Source: Rhabdobacter roseus (GTDB taxonomy: Bacteria > Bacteroidota > Bacteroidia > Cytophagales > Spirosomataceae). Taken from it: 64,000 nucleotides of DNA. The notes below the pieces were generated by a model. That model worked only from the letters and a program-made list of their open reading frames with translations, ran no database searches and was not told the origin of the DNA. The stretch is from positions 1 through 64,000 of the forward strand of contig NZ_JACHGF010000018.1 in the NCBI RefSeq assembly GCF_014202275.1, in the 5' to 3' direction. Shown piece after piece: positions 3,386-13,004 of this stretch. The translations under genes were made by a program, and so were the position numbers. Numbering within the stretch: position 1 is the first letter of the stretch; the number at the start of each line of letters is the position of its first letter.

Positions 3386-6300
3386 CTAGGCGTACTCGGA
3401 CGGAGGTACCCCGTACTCCTGCTGGAATTTGGTGGAGAAGTAAGACAGGCTCTCAAAGCCCGAAGCGAAGGCAATCTCCGATACGCTGCCCGCCTTTTGT
3501 TTGAGGAGATTGGCGGCGGATTGCAGGCGGAGCTTTCGGACAAATTCGACGGGGGTGAGCCCGGTGAGGGCCCGCAACTTACGCCGCAGTTGCGTCGAAC
3601 TCATAGCCAACTCATCGGCAAACTGCTCGATGTCGAAGGTACTTTCGCTCAGATGACTCCACACCACGGCCTTGGCTTTTTCCAGAAATAGCTCGTCCGC
3701 TGACAACTCCTTCAGTGGGCTCGTATCCTGCTCCACCAGGCTTTGTTGATAATGGCTGATGAGGGCCTGCCGTTGGCGGAGCAGGCTGCTCACCCGGGCT
3801 CTGATCTCGCGGGCTTCGAAGGGCTTGGTGAGGTAGTCGTCTGCCCCCTGCTCGAAGCCCACGATGCGGTCGTCGACGGTGGCTTTGGCCGTGAGCATGA
3901 TCAGGGGAATGTGGCTCGTGGTTTGGTTATTCCGCAGCTGCTGGCAGAGGGCCAATCCGTCGAGCCGGGGCATCATCCAGTCGGTAATAAGAATATCCGG
4001 CAGCCGTTCGGTGGCTTTTTCCAGGGCTTCTTGCCCATCCTGAGCCTCCAGGATCTGGTATTCCTCACGAAATATCCCCGCGATGTAGGTTCGTAGGTCG
4101 GCGTTATCTTCGGCGATCAGCATCAGTGGCCGGTCTGTTTCCGTTTCGGCCGCAAGAGGGAAAGAAACGGGTACTTCCCGCGCCATGTGGACTTGGTAGT
4201 CGGTTGGGTGGTGAGGCGATCCCGGAAGTAGCGTGGTGGCACCGAGAAAATCAATGGGTAGTTGTACGGCAAACGAAGTACCTTGGCCCGGCTGACTGGT
4301 TACGGAGATGCTTCCACCGAGTAGGTCCACGAGCTCCTTCACCAGCGCCAGTCCAATCCCGGCCCCTTCGTTGGTTCGGGTGGAGCCGCCCTCAACTTGA
4401 TAAAAGCGGTCAAAGATGCGGGCCGTTTTTTCCGGCGGAATCCCCACGCCCGTATCCTCGACGCAGATCTCGGCTTGTTGCTTCGGCAGGTCGTAGGTCA
4501 CCGACAGCCGGATCCGGTTCCCATCCTGCGTAAATTTGAAAGCATTGGCCAGCAGATTGGTCACGATCTTGTCTATCTTATCGGGATCGAAGCGGGCAGG
4601 TACCTCCGTTAGATTCTGTTTGACCTTAAAAGCTATAGACCGGCTTTCGGCCAGCGAGGCAAAAGAGAGACCCAGTATCTGTATATACCCGGCCAGATCC
4701 CCTTCGGTCAGTTGCACCTGCATTTGTTGGCTTTCCAGCTTGCCCAGGTCCAGCAACTGGTTGATCAGCGTCAGCAGGCGATCGGCATTGCGCCGCATGG
4801 GCTGTAAAATAGCCTCCTGCGGGTAACGGCTTTGCAGATCAGCAATCGGGCCGACCAGCAACGTCAAGGGCGTACGGAACTCATGCGATATGTTGGTAAA
4901 GAAGTGTGTTTTCAGTTGATCTAACTCCGAAAGGCGGGTAGCCTCCCGCTGCTCGTAGCCCAGCTGCTCCTGCAGCCGAACGCGCCGGATCTGAGCCCCG
5001 TAAAGGACGTAAACGACCCCAAAAAAAAGCCCGACGTACGCCAGATAGGCCCACGCACTCAGGTACCAGGGGGGATGAATGTGTATCTTCAGTTTCAGCG
5101 GGCGGGGGGTCCAGGTAGAGCCGTCAAAAGAAGCAACGACGCGTAGCGTGTAGTTCCCCGGCGACAAACGGGTATAATTGGCAAAGCGGGTGGTACCGGC
5201 GTCGATCCAGTCCGTATCGACGCCATCCAGCCGGTAGCGGTAACGGTTTTTGGAGCTGTTGTTGAGGTCCAGGGTGGAGAATTCAAAGGTGAGGATATTC
5301 TGGTCGTGCTCCAGGGATATAGCCTCCGTGTACTCGATGGCTTTTGACAGAATCCGAGTACTGTCGTGGGGTTCAACCGCCTGGTTATTTATTTTCAGAC
5401 CTACGATAGCCACCGAAGCGGGCTTTTCGGGCTTCCACGATTGGTCGGGCCGGAAAACGGTTAACCCGTTGATACCCCCAAAAATTAATTCTCCCTGGCT
5501 GTTTTTGAAGAAGCAGCTGCCATTGAATTCGTCGGACTGTAACCCATCCCGGGAAGAGTACGTACTAAAAACCAACGTGGACAGATTTAGACTAGAAAGC
5601 CCCCGAAAGGTACTCATCCAGAGGTTGCCCTGGGTGTCTGACAGAAGGCCTGCCACCACATTATTTCCCAACCCGTCTTTTTCGGTAAACGAGCGGATCT
5701 GCCGATTCGATTTGTCCAGGCGGATCAGACCGCCCCTGGTACCAATCCAGATAAACCGCTCGGGTTGTTTCGGATCGTCGAGCAGGGCGTACACGTAATT
5801 CTCCTGAAGGGACTTTTTAGTAGCGGTACTTAGGCTCACCTGCGAAAACGTCCGTACGCCACCTACCTCCACCGTCCGGAAGAGGCCTACGTTGGTCCCG
5901 ATCCAGAGGGCTTTTTCCTGATCCTGGTAGAGGGCATTCACGCCTACGCTCGTTTCGTTCAGCGAAAGCAGGTCCCCGTAGGGGTAGTAGTCGACGGCTC
6001 CGCTGGCGGGAGAAAATCGGATCAGCTCCACGTTGGCTCCGGCAATCCATAGGTACCCATCCTGGTCTTGCAGGAGACGCGCACGAACAAAATCACCGTT
6101 CCGATGCAGATCGTATTCCTTTACTTTCTTTAAATGCTCGTCCAACTGAACCAAGATCATGTCGAACTGCCCCGGAAACTTCTGAATGATGCACCAAAAC
6201 CCCCCGTTCCGGTCTTCAATCATATTTCCTTTTTGCCGACCCTCGTACTCGGTCAGCAGCGCCTGTTGACTCGCCTGCCCGGTCTTTTTATCAAGTAGGA

Positions 6301-7459
6301 AAATTCGGGTGTAGTCCCAGGAGAAAATGCGCCCCCGCCTGTCTTCGATGACGTGCCAGATGCTATACCCGTGCAAGTAGTTACGGAATCGTTTCCGAAC
6401 GGCTTGTTGCTTCTTGATGCCGTAGCCGTTGGTACCCAGCCACACATTCCCCTCCGAATCGGTGAGGTTTTTGGTCAGGTAACAATTATTCCCGACCGTA
6501 AAAACGGGTTCCTGCGCCAGGACATTTTTGGTGAGAGTGGTATAGTGGCTGTTGTATACCTTTCCCTCGGACCGAATCCAAACCGTTCCATCCGGGCTCA
6601 TGACCATCCCTCGTTTGGCTTCGGCGTTGGGGTCAAAAAAGAGAGTCTGTGCTTCCTTTTCGTTTTTTATTCTAACTACGCGGTCGGCCTTCGTCACCAG
6701 CAGAGAACCGTCGGCCTCTTCCAGCACACCGGTGACGGGAAATTCACTGTAAGTACCCAGGGACACCGACCGGAGTTGGTTTTTTCGGAAGTCGAGCTCA
6801 TAAAACCAGGGGCCAAAGGCGACCCACATTTTTCCACGCTGGGTGCGGTATATCCACTTTACGCTGATCAGATTGAGGGGCTGGAGGGCGGGGTTCAGCC
6901 TATCCATTTCCACCTGATGCGTAAAATCGGGCCCTTCGGGAAATCCTTTCTTTAGCCTTGAAGGCAAACGGAGCTTGAACAGCTTACCGGCAAAAGTACC
7001 TACCCAGATGTTGCCCTCGGGATCTTCCTGGATGGAAGAAATATGTTCATTGGGCGTTTTATCCGACGACTGCCCACTGGTGTTGTCTTTGAGCGAACAA
7101 TGGTAAAACCGCCTGGTTATGCGGTCGTAGAGGTTGAGCCCCTGGCTGGTAGTACCCACCCAAAGCCTCCCTTGCGAATCTTCAAAAAGGGCCGACGTTT
7201 GGCTATCGGAAATGGCGTAGGGATTAGTAGCGTCGGGAAAAAAAACCTTGTAGGTATAGCCATCGAAGCGATTCAGCCCGTTCTTAGTCGCAATCCAGAC
7301 ATAGTGCTCGTGGTCTTCGATCAGATCGAAAATCATTCCCTGCGACAGGCCGTCGGCCAGGGTAATATCCTGAAACACTGGGGCCTGTGCGAAAGACCGG
7401 TTACTTGGAAATAGGAGGAACGGGCCGCAAACGAATACGAGCGCGTAGAAAAATTTCAT
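3386..7459 (-). CDS. Hybrid two-component system sensor/regulator (HTCS)
   Basis: From the ATG at 7459 this is 1357 aa; an upstream ATG at 7522 would add 21 residues before the hydrophobic signal (MKFFYALVFV), so the shorter start is preferred. Order of domains: signal peptide, periplasmic two-component propeller repeats (GLNRFDGYTYK.., many IWIGT/LWVGT motifs), Y_Y_Y domain (YRYRLDGVDTDW), one membrane span (WYLSAWAYLAYVGLFF), HisKA (NISHEFRTPL), HATPase, receiver (DILITDWMMP, phospho-Asp) and AraC-type HTH at the C-terminus. HTCS proteins sense carbohydrate fragments in the periplasm and activate nearby polysaccharide-use loci. No SusC/SusD or glycosidase is visible beside it here, so its target may be the LRR cluster downstream or genes elsewhere. 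Confidence 0.93.
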   Translation of the reverse strand: MKFFYALVFVCGPFLLFPSNRSFAQAPVFQDITLADGLSQGMIFDLIEDHEHYVWIATKNGLNRFDGYTYKVFFPDATNPYAISDSQTSALFEDSQGRLWVGTTSQGLNLYDRITRRFYHCSLKDNTSGQSSDKTPNEHISSIQEDPEGNIWVGTFAGKLFKLRLPSRLKKGFPEGPDFTHQVEMDRLNPALQPLNLISVKWIYRTQRGKMWVAFGPWFYELDFRKNQLRSVSLGTYSEFPVTGVLEEADGSLLVTKADRVVRIKNEKEAQTLFFDPNAEAKRGMVMSPDGTVWIRSEGKVYNSHYTTLTKNVLAQEPVFTVGNNCYLTKNLTDSEGNVWLGTNGYGIKKQQAVRKRFRNYLHGYSIWHVIEDRRGRIFSWDYTRIFLLDKKTGQASQQALLTEYEGRQKGNMIEDRNGGFWCIIQKFPGQFDMILVQLDEHLKKVKEYDLHRNGDFVRARLLQDQDGYLWIAGANVELIRFSPASGAVDYYPYGDLLSLNETSVGVNALYQDQEKALWIGTNVGLFRTVEVGGVRTFSQVSLSTATKKSLQENYVYALLDDPKQPERFIWIGTRGGLIRLDKSNRQIRSFTEKDGLGNNVVAGLLSDTQGNLWMSTFRGLSSLNLSTLVFSTYSSRDGLQSDEFNGSCFFKNSQGELIFGGINGLTVFRPDQSWKPEKPASVAIVGLKINNQAVEPHDSTRILSKAIEYTEAISLEHDQNILTFEFSTLDLNNSSKNRYRYRLDGVDTDWIDAGTTRFANYTRLSPGNYTLRVVASFDGSTWTPRPLKLKIHIHPPWYLSAWAYLAYVGLFFGVVYVLYGAQIRRVRLQEQLGYEQREATRLSELDQLKTHFFTNISHEFRTPLTLLVGPIADLQSRYPQEAILQPMRRNADRLLTLINQLLDLGKLESQQMQVQLTEGDLAGYIQILGLSFASLAESRSIAFKVKQNLTEVPARFDPDKIDKIVTNLLANAFKFTQDGNRIRLSVTYDLPKQQAEICVEDTGVGIPPEKTARIFDRFYQVEGGSTRTNEGAGIGLALVKELVDLLGGSISVTSQPGQGTSFAVQLPIDFLGATTLLPGSPHHPTDYQVHMAREVPVSFPLAAETETDRPLMLIAEDNADLRTYIAGIFREEYQILEAQDGQEALEKATERLPDILITDWMMPRLDGLALCQQLRNNQTTSHIPLIMLTAKATVDDRIVGFEQGADDYLTKPFEAREIRARVSSLLRQRQALISHYQQSLVEQDTSPLKELSADELFLEKAKAVVWSHLSESTFDIEQFADELAMSSTQLRRKLRALTGLTPVEFVRKLRLQSAANLLKQKAGSVSEIAFASGFESLSYFSTKFQQEYGVPPSEYA

Positions 7460-7522: not shown

Positions 7523-7863
7523 CTATTTTTTACGACCCCTCTACGGGTTCAGTTTTGTTTTATTCAGGTACTTGGTACCAATAAAACCCATATATACGTT
7601 GTTTTTAATGCCTGAGATCACGAAAAGATTTTTCTAAGGTAATAAATCTAACGCAACGCCATAGCCCTTTCCCTGCTTTGGTGAAGGCGGGATTTACTTT
7701 AAGCCTGGTTGATCTACGGCTTGACGCAAGCTGGCCGCCCAAAGGTACCTAGGTCTCCCAGTAAGGTAAGCATAGGCGCGTCAGAAGTACCCCTTCGTTA
7801 CGTTACATACTGATTACTTCGCGAAAAGTACCTTCGTTTGAGAAAAAACGGGTATGCCAAATG
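7523..7863. other. Intergenic region without recognised gene
   Basis: About 340 bp between the HTCS start and the tRNA terminator. It holds several GTACC-type words (for example near 7568, 7745, 7787 and 7829) and presumably the HTCS promoter. I could not identify an exact -7 box, a small ORF or a repeat. Confidence 0.4.
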
Positions 7864-7892: not shown

Positions 7893-7912
7893 CGGCTAAA
7901 ATTTGAAGAAAG

Positions 7913-7986
<74 letters not shown>

Positions 7987-8353
7987 AAAGTAATGAACGT
8001 GTCCCTAGTGCTTGGCTTGCCAAATGGGAGTGCAAATATGTAGCCTCAAAATGAAATACGCAAGCAAGCTCCCTGTTTTTTTAGTCCAAAACCTATCATA
8101 CAGACTATCAAGCTAGTTGTAGCTGCCCTATTAAGTAGCTATTAGCAACCCTTTTGCATGCTTTATATACTTTTAAATCAGGCACATGCAATAAAATCAT
8201 TGGTTTGGGTGTTCTATATACTGTTGGCTTCTGTTATATTTGACGTTGGCTTCACAGATAGGTTGGGTTTTCATTTTCCGTAGTCTTTCCTTTTTGTCTA
8301 GTTACCCTGTATCCTCATGAACCTCTATCTATCTGTTGAATCACAATGTCTGT
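7987..8353. other. Divergent promoter region, tRNA-Ala / desaturase
   Basis: An AT-rich spacer of about 370 bp. On the plus strand an exact Bacteroidota -7 box TATATTTG lies at 8235-8242, about 110 nt before the desaturase start. On the minus strand a weaker match (CATATTTG, about 8033-8040) could serve the tRNA. No ORF of note is present. Confidence 0.4.
8235..8242 (+). promoter_or_regulatory. -7 box of fatty-acid desaturase promoter
   Basis: TATATTTG fits the Bacteroidota consensus TAnnTTTG exactly. Transcription would begin near 8250 and give a leader of about 100 nt. No clear TTTG at -33 is found with standard spacing, so the assignment is moderate. Confidence 0.45.
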
Positions 8354-12462: not shown

Positions 12463-12571
12463 TTTTGGGATATATTTTGAATAGTATCTAATAATTAGTC
12501 GTAAAAATTGACAATTATCTAAATTTTACGAAATATTTATGCAAATATTTTAATTTTAAATGTAAGCACCT

Positions 12572-12579
12572 TACCTTTG
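12572..12579 (+). promoter_or_regulatory. -7 box of tRNA-like RNA gene
   Basis: TACCTTTG fits TAnnTTTG exactly. It would start transcription near 12586, 64 nt before the cloverleaf. The leader contains CGCTCTTTGAC (12634-12644), which resembles the boxA antitermination element of rRNA and tRNA transcripts. No clear -33 TTTG is seen. Confidence 0.5.
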
Positions 12580-12649
12580 TAAAGTCGATTCGGGAAAGCA
12601 GCTCCTATAAGTACCCCGCTTCCTGATGGACGACGCTCTTTGACTATAC

Positions 12650-12808
12650 TGTAGGATGATGAAACTGGCAGCCATGCCCTCCTGTCTCGGGGGTGGTGAT
12701 TCCGGGACAAACGCGATATAATGTTGGCTTCGGCCGACTGGGGTTGACCACCAACTCTTTGTATCGTGGCTAACCGCACCGTGGGTGGTTCGACTCCCCC
12801 TCCTACAG
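12650..12808 (+). ncRNA. tRNA-like RNA with a 90-nt branched variable arm
   Basis: A full class-II-like cloverleaf can be drawn. Acceptor TGTAGGA/TCCTACA (12650-12656 / 12801-12807) pairs 7/7. The D arm is ATG..CAT (12659-12675) with GG in the loop. The anticodon stem CCCTC/GGGGG (12677-12681 / 12689-12693) has a 7-nt loop CTGTCTC, so the nominal anticodon is GTC. The T arm is GGTGG/CCCCC with one T-C mismatch and loop TTCGACT (12784-12800). Between anticodon and T stems lie 90 nt that fold as an extended arm: TGGTG/CACCG, then CGG/CCG, then CGCGATA/TATCGTG, capped by GTTGGC-TTCG-GCCGAC and GGGTTG-ACCAC-CAACTC. Discriminator is G and CCA is not encoded. The D arm resembles tRNA-Leu. No intron class of this size is known to me, and it is too short for tmRNA. 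Function is unknown. Confidence 0.7.
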
Positions 12809-12888
12809 CTTAATAAAAAAAACTTGACAAGCGAATAATTTCGCCGTAGTTTTATTTGGTTTTTAGTTTGTTGATGAAGTGTAATTTG

Positions 12889-12930
12889 ACACGCGGGTTC
12901 GTTTTGAAACCTGCGTGTTTTCTTTTTTAT
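12889..12930 (+). terminator. Terminator downstream of tRNA-like RNA
   Basis: ACACGCGGGTTC (12889-12900) pairs with GAAACCTGCGTGT (12906-12918; one bulge and one G-U pair) and is followed by TTTTCTTTTTT. It closes a transcription unit of about 340 nt that starts near 12586. This shows that the RNA is a separate gene and that the reading frame opened at GTG 12915 is not a real start. Confidence 0.75.
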
Positions 12931-13004
12931 TCCTCTCTGCTTCCCGCTATCCTGCGGGTTTCGCTATCTTGCGGCTGGTTTTAAAGTACCTTCTTCCCAA
13001 CGGC

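Follow-up and report, generated by a model that had tools for sequence, protein, structure and literature searches.

The staphylococcal non-proteinogenic tRNA-Gly is kept for cell-wall bridges and stands outside decoding, and tRNA mimicry by noncoding RNAs is known from tmRNA and from the bacterial Y RNAs (YrlA) with their tRNA-like domain. In Bdellovibrio, Deinococcus and Thermus, asparagine is made in a tRNA-dependent way, by a non-discriminating AspRS and GatCAB acting on tRNA-Asn, according to the account in a survey (PMC4206432).

The RNA gene described here lies at positions 12650-12809 of a stretch of 64,000 nucleotides from Rhabdobacter roseus, called the window. As in the staphylococcal tRNA-Gly, its job would be a non-decoding one, but the staphylococcal case concerns another amino acid and has neither a giant variable (V) arm nor an amidotransferase step. 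Unlike YrlA and tmRNA, it has complete D, anticodon and T arms, and a scan of 12480-12980 against Rfam up to E 10 matched neither of the two. With tRNA-dependent asparagine synthesis, as outlined in the survey, it has in common the enzymes, the requirement for U1-A72 and, in the window genome, the genotype (AsnRS, GlnRS and GatB, with no AsnA and no AsnB over the cut-off). However, the systems described there use a decoding tRNA-Asn and a relaxed AspRS, whereas this is a separate RNA without the usual decoding bases, and its Asp anticodon determinants would suit a discriminating AspRS. G34, U35, C36, C38, G73 and G2-C71 are common to the RNA and tRNA-Asp, but the RNA has U1-A72 in place of G1-C72, no fixed G10, no conservation of U33 and purine 37, and a class II body with a long V arm and a Leu-like D arm. 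By eye the D arm and the base of the V arm are like those of tRNA-Leu, whereas G73 stands where the LeuRS determinant would be A73 (on the account given in PMC9976931), the anticodon loop is a different one and the V arm is several-fold longer.

The RNA gene, its relatives and its neighbourhood

An earlier note on this DNA had proposed a complete tRNA cloverleaf with a variable region of about 90 nt, and this was borne out. The parts lie at the coordinates given in Table 1, RNAalifold recovered the acceptor, anticodon, V-base and T stems unprompted from 56 relatives, and in the refined structure of these 56 sequences 95.7% of cells are paired, against 84.1% after shuffling and at most 58.2% after sliding. 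The case for the gene is comparative. Folding of the single window sequence is not decisive, with a z of -1.94, 7 of 200 shuffles equally good and a minimum-energy fold that differs from the cloverleaf.

Table 1. Features of the RNA locus in the window
Feature	Position	Strand	Evidence
Divergent Lrp/AsnC-family regulator, 158 aa	11986..12462	-	PF01037 E 1.1e-19 and AsnC-type HTH
Inverted repeat TCGTAAAAATT-n11-AAATTTTACGA, candidate regulator operator	12499..12531	.	11-nt arms, 91% complementary
Bacteroidota -7 promoter box TACCTTTG (TAnnTTTG)	12572..12579	+	kept in 91/105 distinct upstream stretches
Whole tRNA-like RNA, T1 to C74	12650..12809	+	covariance model R1 155.6 bits; window copy among those the model was built from
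Acceptor stem, 5' strand	12650..12656	+	100% of cells paired; U1-A72, G2-C71 invariant, 91/91
Leu-like D arm, 3-bp stem, G18G19, A20a G20b	12659..12675	+	D stem 95.2% of cells paired, 2/3 pairs changed on both sides; 20a = A 91/91
Anticodon arm CCCTC-CTGTCTC-GGGGG	12677..12693	+	stem 12677-12681/12689-12693; G34 U35 C36 = 12684-12686, C38 = 12688
Giant V arm (~90-nt region)	12695..12780	+	P1, P2, internal loop, P3, distal hairpins; MI scan and covariation
V-arm P1	12695-12698/12777-12780	+	100% of cells paired; has pairs changed on both sides
V-arm P2	12703-12705/12774-12776	+	83.2% of cells paired; has pairs changed on both sides
V-arm internal loop GAYAAA/CUAA, conserved	12706-12711/12770-12773	+	
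V-arm P3	12712-12719/12761-12769	+	87.7% of cells paired; has pairs changed on both sides
T arm with one bulged base (12786), T loop TTCGACT 12789-12795	12783..12800	+	100% of cells paired, 56 sequences
Acceptor stem, 3' strand (12801-12807), with G73 (12808) and C74 (12809)	12801..12809	+	G73, C74 in 91/91
Promoter-like TTGACA and TAGTTTTA, before the TTTGGTTTTTAGTTTGTTGATGAAGTGTAAT element	12824-12829, 12847-12854	+	
Downstream conserved element TTTGGTTTTTAGTTTGTTGATGAAGTGTAAT	12855-12885	+	≤900 nt downstream of 96/329 copies, ≤5 substitutions
Terminator hairpin after the TTTGGTTTTTAGTTTGTTGATGAAGTGTAAT element	about 12886-12927	+	

At E ≤ 10, BLAST with the window RNA matched 98 of 99 related genomes, though often by chance. 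Strong full-length or 5'-half matches were numerous and some were in tandem, one genome having six copies. From 81 matches, 78 full copies were extracted (three had no full 3' end or were outside the search pattern). These included 73 distinct copies of 116-176 nt, 56 of which form the alignment A1. The cloverleaf with D, anticodon and T arms is present in A1, where the elbow bases G18, G19, T54, T55 and C56 are invariant. Homologues with covarying stems, by which the earlier note would in part have its proposal judged, do exist. The covariance model R1 reached at least 90 bits in 40 of the 395 Bacteroidota genomes sampled, and 21 of the 34 pairs in the refined cloverleaf and V-arm structure changed on both sides among the 56 sequences, the V-arm helices having been picked after inspection of the same alignment. 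Below 90 bits the scores fall to 69.6 (one relative without V arm) and then to about 60 (85-nt genes); two of these 85-nt genes, from genomes without the RNA, were checked and both were tRNA-Leu. The automatic tally of 381 for the model takes in the V-armless relative and the 85-nt genes. Matches at E ≤ 1e-18 were present in 35 of 198 genomes of the class, and the exact anticodon-arm pattern was found, among the matches listed, in Dyadobacter, Spirosoma, Runella, Cyclobacterium, Algoriphagus, Flammeovirga and Portibacter. A search of plasmids gave no match. The V-armless relative (77 nt, minus strand, positions 1838-1914 of L262, genome G071) has the loop CTATCTC and the same TGT...ACAGC ends, is followed on its 3' side by a terminator-like hairpin, and is called tRNA-Asp(atc) by ARAGORN.

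Details of the earlier description had to be revised. The supposed mismatch in the T stem is better taken for a single bulged base (T12786) of a 5-bp stem; in relatives the number of bulged bases is 0, 1 or 2. The layout of the V arm is now given as a 4-bp base (P1), a 3-bp second helix (P2), the GAYAAA/CUAA loop, P3 and a distal part that varies by lineage from a mini-hairpin to two hairpins. Complementarity in the window, L049 and L066 had prompted the idea of a pseudoknot between the anticodon loop and the V arm, which was rejected. Although 85.2% of its cells are paired in A1, none of its pairs changed on both sides or ranks among the first 45 of the MI scan; L257, L245 and the copies of family f23 contradict it, and its strand in the V arm overlaps P2. 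Mimicry of the anti-Shine-Dalgarno sequence (CCTCCT) was discarded, as the anticodon stem departs from this motif in L047 and L048 while its pairing persists.

Neither ARAGORN nor Rfam at gathering thresholds called the RNA, the sole call in the window being a tRNA-Ala at 7912-7986, and neither gave a tmRNA call at 12650-12809. A permissive Rfam scan of 12480-12980 returned only four weak unrelated matches, and ten further loci matched no known Rfam RNA or tmRNA. The RNA at 12650-12809 is real, and its family is absent from the ARAGORN calls and the Rfam listing.

The earlier note had also described a stand-alone tRNA mimic with its own -7 box, boxA-like leader and terminator, and the flanks agree with this for the most part. 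Of 105 distinct upstream stretches, 91 have TAnnTTTG within 120 nt of the RNA (49 of 49 in family f1), compared with about nine in mononucleotide shuffles. Conservation of the boxA-like leader was not found, its pattern being present in 5 of the 105 stretches. The terminator is there, but it follows a second conserved element that has a promoter-like sequence of its own. This 31-nt element has one full match in the window genome, and together with the terminator it is found downstream of the RNA in families f1, f5 and f17. In G092 and G095, where the RNA is elsewhere, a short element of similar appearance by eye is still present, with a terminator, beside the Lrp gene. The downstream short element was also noted at L304, L305 and L309, and is a candidate small RNA.

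The divergent Lrp/AsnC gene adjoins the RNA in 89 of the 102 genomes with copies matching the core pattern (85 by ORF calls, and 89 after a coordinate check of G000, G006, G016 and G074), and this arrangement is seen in 14 of 18 families, including one outside the class. Six genomes with the RNA (G092, G093, G095, G161, G186 and G272) have an Lrp orthologue of 57-68% identity at another site; in G065, which has the RNA and no adjacent regulator, an orthologue was not found at E ≤ 1e-20. The best Lrp matches in RNA-less genomes of families f25, f26, f30 and f31 are 39-49% identical, and the T-loop motif was not found on the divergent side of the Lrp matches in eight such genomes. The inverted repeat between the regulator gene and the promoter box may be the operator of the regulator. 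This regulator gene of an amino-acid type, taken together with the identity bases described below, suggests that the RNA may assist in the making of an amino acid and not be a tRNA for protein synthesis.

Identity bases and the amidotransferase

Base frequencies were taken from 91 distinct copies, out of 108 matches of the covariance model from 77 loci. These copies were found through likeness to the window or the model, and their loops are therefore not a blind sample; however, finding copies by likeness would not by itself free positions 33 and 37 while fixing 35, 36 and 38. Position 33 is variable (T74, A9, G5, C3) and position 37 is mostly T (T81, C6, G4), so that U33 and a purine at 37, as required for decoding, occur together in only 4 of the 91 copies. 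The RNA appears unable to read codons. In contrast to these two positions, G34 is kept in 86 copies, and U35, C36, C38, G73 and C74, the pairs U1-A72 and G2-C71, and A at 20a (U20a is thus absent) are found in all 91. Position 10 has no fixed G (A62, T15, G14).

As set out in PMC9976931, the bacterial Asp determinants are G73, G10, G34, U35, C36 and C38, of which G34, U35, C36, C38 and G73 are the strong five; G1-C72 and G2-C71 are strictly conserved in bacterial tRNA-Asp, and the pair 1-72 helps the E. coli AspRS to position the 3' end. Against the AspRS set given there, the RNA has the five strong determinants and G2-C71, and has neither G10 nor G1-C72. The same source states that amidation of Asp-tRNA-Asn is conferred by U1-A72 and prevented by G1-C72 and U20a. 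The RNA has the bases of a GatCAB substrate in these terms, with U1-A72 present and U20a absent, and the tRNA-Asn of the window genome itself carries U1-A72. For LeuRS the determinant is A73 (PMC9976931), where G73 is found in 91 of 91 copies. Regarding tRNA-Ser, G73 and a large V region are present, but C72, R4-Y69 and C11-G24 are not: position 72 is A in 91/91, pair 4-69 is UA in 5/91 and pair 11-24 is C-G in 10/56. The window genome has five tRNA-Leu genes, three tRNA-Ser genes and one ordinary tRNA-Asp(GTC) gene, and the anticodon loop of the RNA differs from the tRNA-Asp loop by one base. The earlier note's remark on a GTC anticodon in a Leu-like setting is supported. Whatever its function, this is a strongly conserved tRNA-derived RNA family, unlisted in Rfam 15 and uncalled here by ARAGORN, without the usual decoding bases and with Asp-type determinants and the GatCAB pair.

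This mosaic of bases can be read as an instruction to charge with aspartate and then amidate, which predicts GatCAB in the genomes that carry the RNA. GatB and the synthetases were scored in 60 related genomes of our own choosing, 34 with and 26 without the RNA (G009, G014, G019 and G058, RNA-less members of the window's family, are outside this panel), the amidotransferase being represented panel-wide by GatB alone. GatB was present in all 34 genomes with the RNA; among the 26 without it, 11 have an ordinary GatB, three a fused GatB and 12 none. In 40 genomes of the panel both GlnRS and AsnRS are present, so that GatCAB is not needed there for charging decoding tRNAs. In these, ordinary GatB was found in 24 of 24 genomes with the RNA, compared with 2 of 16 without it (G038 and G112), the other RNA-less genomes having a fusion (three) or no GatB (11). 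Fisher's test of GatB against the RNA, which ignores descent, gave 5e-9 with ordinary GatB only, 1.9e-6 with fusions counted and 0.002 by family. The remaining 20 genomes, without GlnRS or AsnRS, are uninformative either way (GatB in 10/10 with and 9/10 without the RNA), as expected if GatB serves tRNA-Gln there. In family f23, the RNA-less G100 has AsnA and no GatB, whereas its three relatives with the RNA in the panel have GatB. The RNA family thus goes with GatB as well as with the Lrp/AsnC gene.

The window genome has GlnRS, AsnRS and an ordinary GatB of 497 aa, whereas AsnA had no match in it and AsnB did not exceed the curated cut-off. Such a genotype is taken as a sign of tRNA-dependent asparagine synthesis in the survey cited above, where Bacteroidetes are listed among such genera (PMC4206432). 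Loss of AsnA and AsnB as a rule for genomes with the RNA was rejected, because AsnB is over the cut-off in 26 of 28 of those outside the window's family; the RNA route would therefore rarely be the only one to asparagine. Neither enzyme is over the cut-off in 7 of 34 genomes with the RNA (the window genome included) and in 5 of 26 without it (the three fusion genomes included), and all 12 genomes without GatB carry AsnA or AsnB over the cut-off. The fusions belong to three RNA-less genomes of the window's family (G044, G021 and G033; loci L341, L342 and L343), in which one ORF has GatB, OB-fold, class II synthetase and GAD domains. It is read as a GatB-AspRS fusion, and the gene that precedes it in G044 and G021 encodes an amidase and is probably gatA. 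Such ORFs would tie GatB to aspartate in the window's family, where the fusion occurs in genomes from which the RNA is missing. Among the titles and beginnings of abstracts listed, with preprints and most subscription papers outside the search, there was no account of the RNA or of a GatB-AspRS fusion.

Proposed role and rival explanations

We give slightly better than even credence to the reading that the RNA is a stand-alone, non-decoding tRNA for asparagine synthesis via AspRS and GatCAB. It would be transcribed from its own Bacteroidota promoter, the box of which is supported by conservation, and would probably be controlled by the divergent Lrp/AsnC regulator, as its position suggests. 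Processing and addition of CCA as in tRNAs would follow, to which G73-C74 and the place of phage copies a few nucleotides from tRNA genes point. Ordinary AspRS would then charge the RNA with aspartate, because G34, U35, C36, C38 and G73 are kept, and GatCAB would amidate Asp-RNA to Asn-RNA, because U1-A72 is present and the antideterminant U20a is absent. The asparagine would be released or handed on; with a giant V arm and with neither U33 nor purine 37 conserved, the charged RNA would be expected to stay out of decoding. The wider proposal, in our estimate evenly poised between right and wrong, is a class of non-decoding tRNAs with amino-acid biosynthesis as their sole job: a mosaic of AspRS and GatCAB determinants would allow asparagine synthesis to begin with an ordinary AspRS and at no risk to the genetic code, the RNA being paired with Lrp/AsnC, replaced in some relatives by the GatB-AspRS fusion and carried by large phages among tRNAs. 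If this is true, an RNA cofactor that serves amino-acid synthesis alone is present in about one in ten sampled Bacteroidota genomes (the 40 of 395), and in phages too. Organisms with GlnRS and AsnRS would then have a way of making asparagine that requires no relaxed AspRS, and the keeping of GatCAB where it seems superfluous would be explained. The earlier note had thought of a regulator of aminoacylation, sequestration of a modification enzyme or a role in translation stress; none of these gained specific support, and the conserved bases, the co-occurrence with GatB and the GatB-AspRS fusions point instead to AspRS and GatCAB and to Asp-to-Asn conversion on the RNA.

Several facts speak against the asparagine-synthesis reading. 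G1-C72 and G10, features of bacterial tRNA-Asp, are missing from the RNA; G34 is lost in 5 of 91 copies; and G038 and G112 keep an ordinary GatB without the RNA despite having GlnRS and AsnRS. A V arm of this size might also get in the way of a class II synthetase. Moreover, as the genome's own tRNA-Asn has U1-A72, a relaxed AspRS acting on tRNA-Asn could do the same job. This last point also favours the main rival, in which the RNA is a scaffold that holds AspRS and GatCAB together (an RNA-built transamidosome) with tRNA-Asn as the substrate, while in RNA-less relatives the GatB-AspRS fusion does the same job. The scaffold would account for the same identity bases and GatB co-occurrence, and for the fusions in the three relatives, but it has no need of U1-A72 and G73-C74 at the acceptor end, which are nevertheless kept in 91 of 91 copies, and we consider it unlikely.

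It is distinctly improbable that the RNA is a sensor or regulator that competes for AspRS or reports Asp/Asn charging in a circuit with Lrp/AsnC, GatCAB being unused on it. The divergent gene in 89 of 102 genomes and the kept AspRS determinants suit such a circuit, but U1-A72 would be left unexplained, as would the keeping of GatB with the RNA despite GlnRS and AsnRS, and in 22 viral loci examined of 28 no Lrp gene is among the two nearest upstream ORFs. A decoy for anticodon nucleases, in which a surplus GUC-type loop draws off the defence or toxin enzymes that cut tRNAs and which phages have in their tRNA arrays, would fit the viral contigs described below and a loop one base away from that of tRNA-Asp. 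However, position 33 varies, and U1-A72, the co-occurrence with GatB and the chromosomal Lrp partner have no explanation in a decoy, so that we think it very improbable. An odd but decoding tRNA-Asp is hardly credible: most copies have the GUC anticodon and G73, and ARAGORN labels the V-armless relative in this way, but an ordinary tRNA-Asp(GTC) is already in the genome, U33 and purine 37 rarely occur together and the V arm is giant.

Phage copies and other tRNA-like genes

The anticodon-arm pattern picked out 28 IMG/VR contigs, and the RNA is present in every one of them (81-136 bits). At 24 of these 28 loci ARAGORN also calls tRNA genes, as many as 25. U1-A72, G2-C71 and G73 are present in 28/28 viral copies (22 distinct); the viral anticodon loops cannot be judged, because the search pattern fixed them. 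Among the INPHARED phages there was no match to the window sequence. Six phage copies (L074, L080, L084, L086, L092 and L097) have an extra D-loop insert that looks hairpin-like by eye.

Phage tRNA arrays also hold further tRNA-like genes, uncalled by ARAGORN, with constant ends and a hypervariable middle (L075, L076, L077, L091 and L093); in L075 they lie at 5129-5276, 6142-6262, 6477-6616, 7682-7830 and 8136-8251. Their constant parts are an AGTCAGG...CCTGACT acceptor, a Leu-like D arm and an ACAGG T stem, and they may be tRNA-scaffolded small RNAs. Finally, tRNA-Lys-like copies were seen beside tRNA-Lys(TTT) at about 400-800 of L276 (G000:C2:355300-355700). Two of them are low-scoring in Rfam, and several have a GC-rich insert, GGGCGGCCGCCGCTGC, near the T arm.
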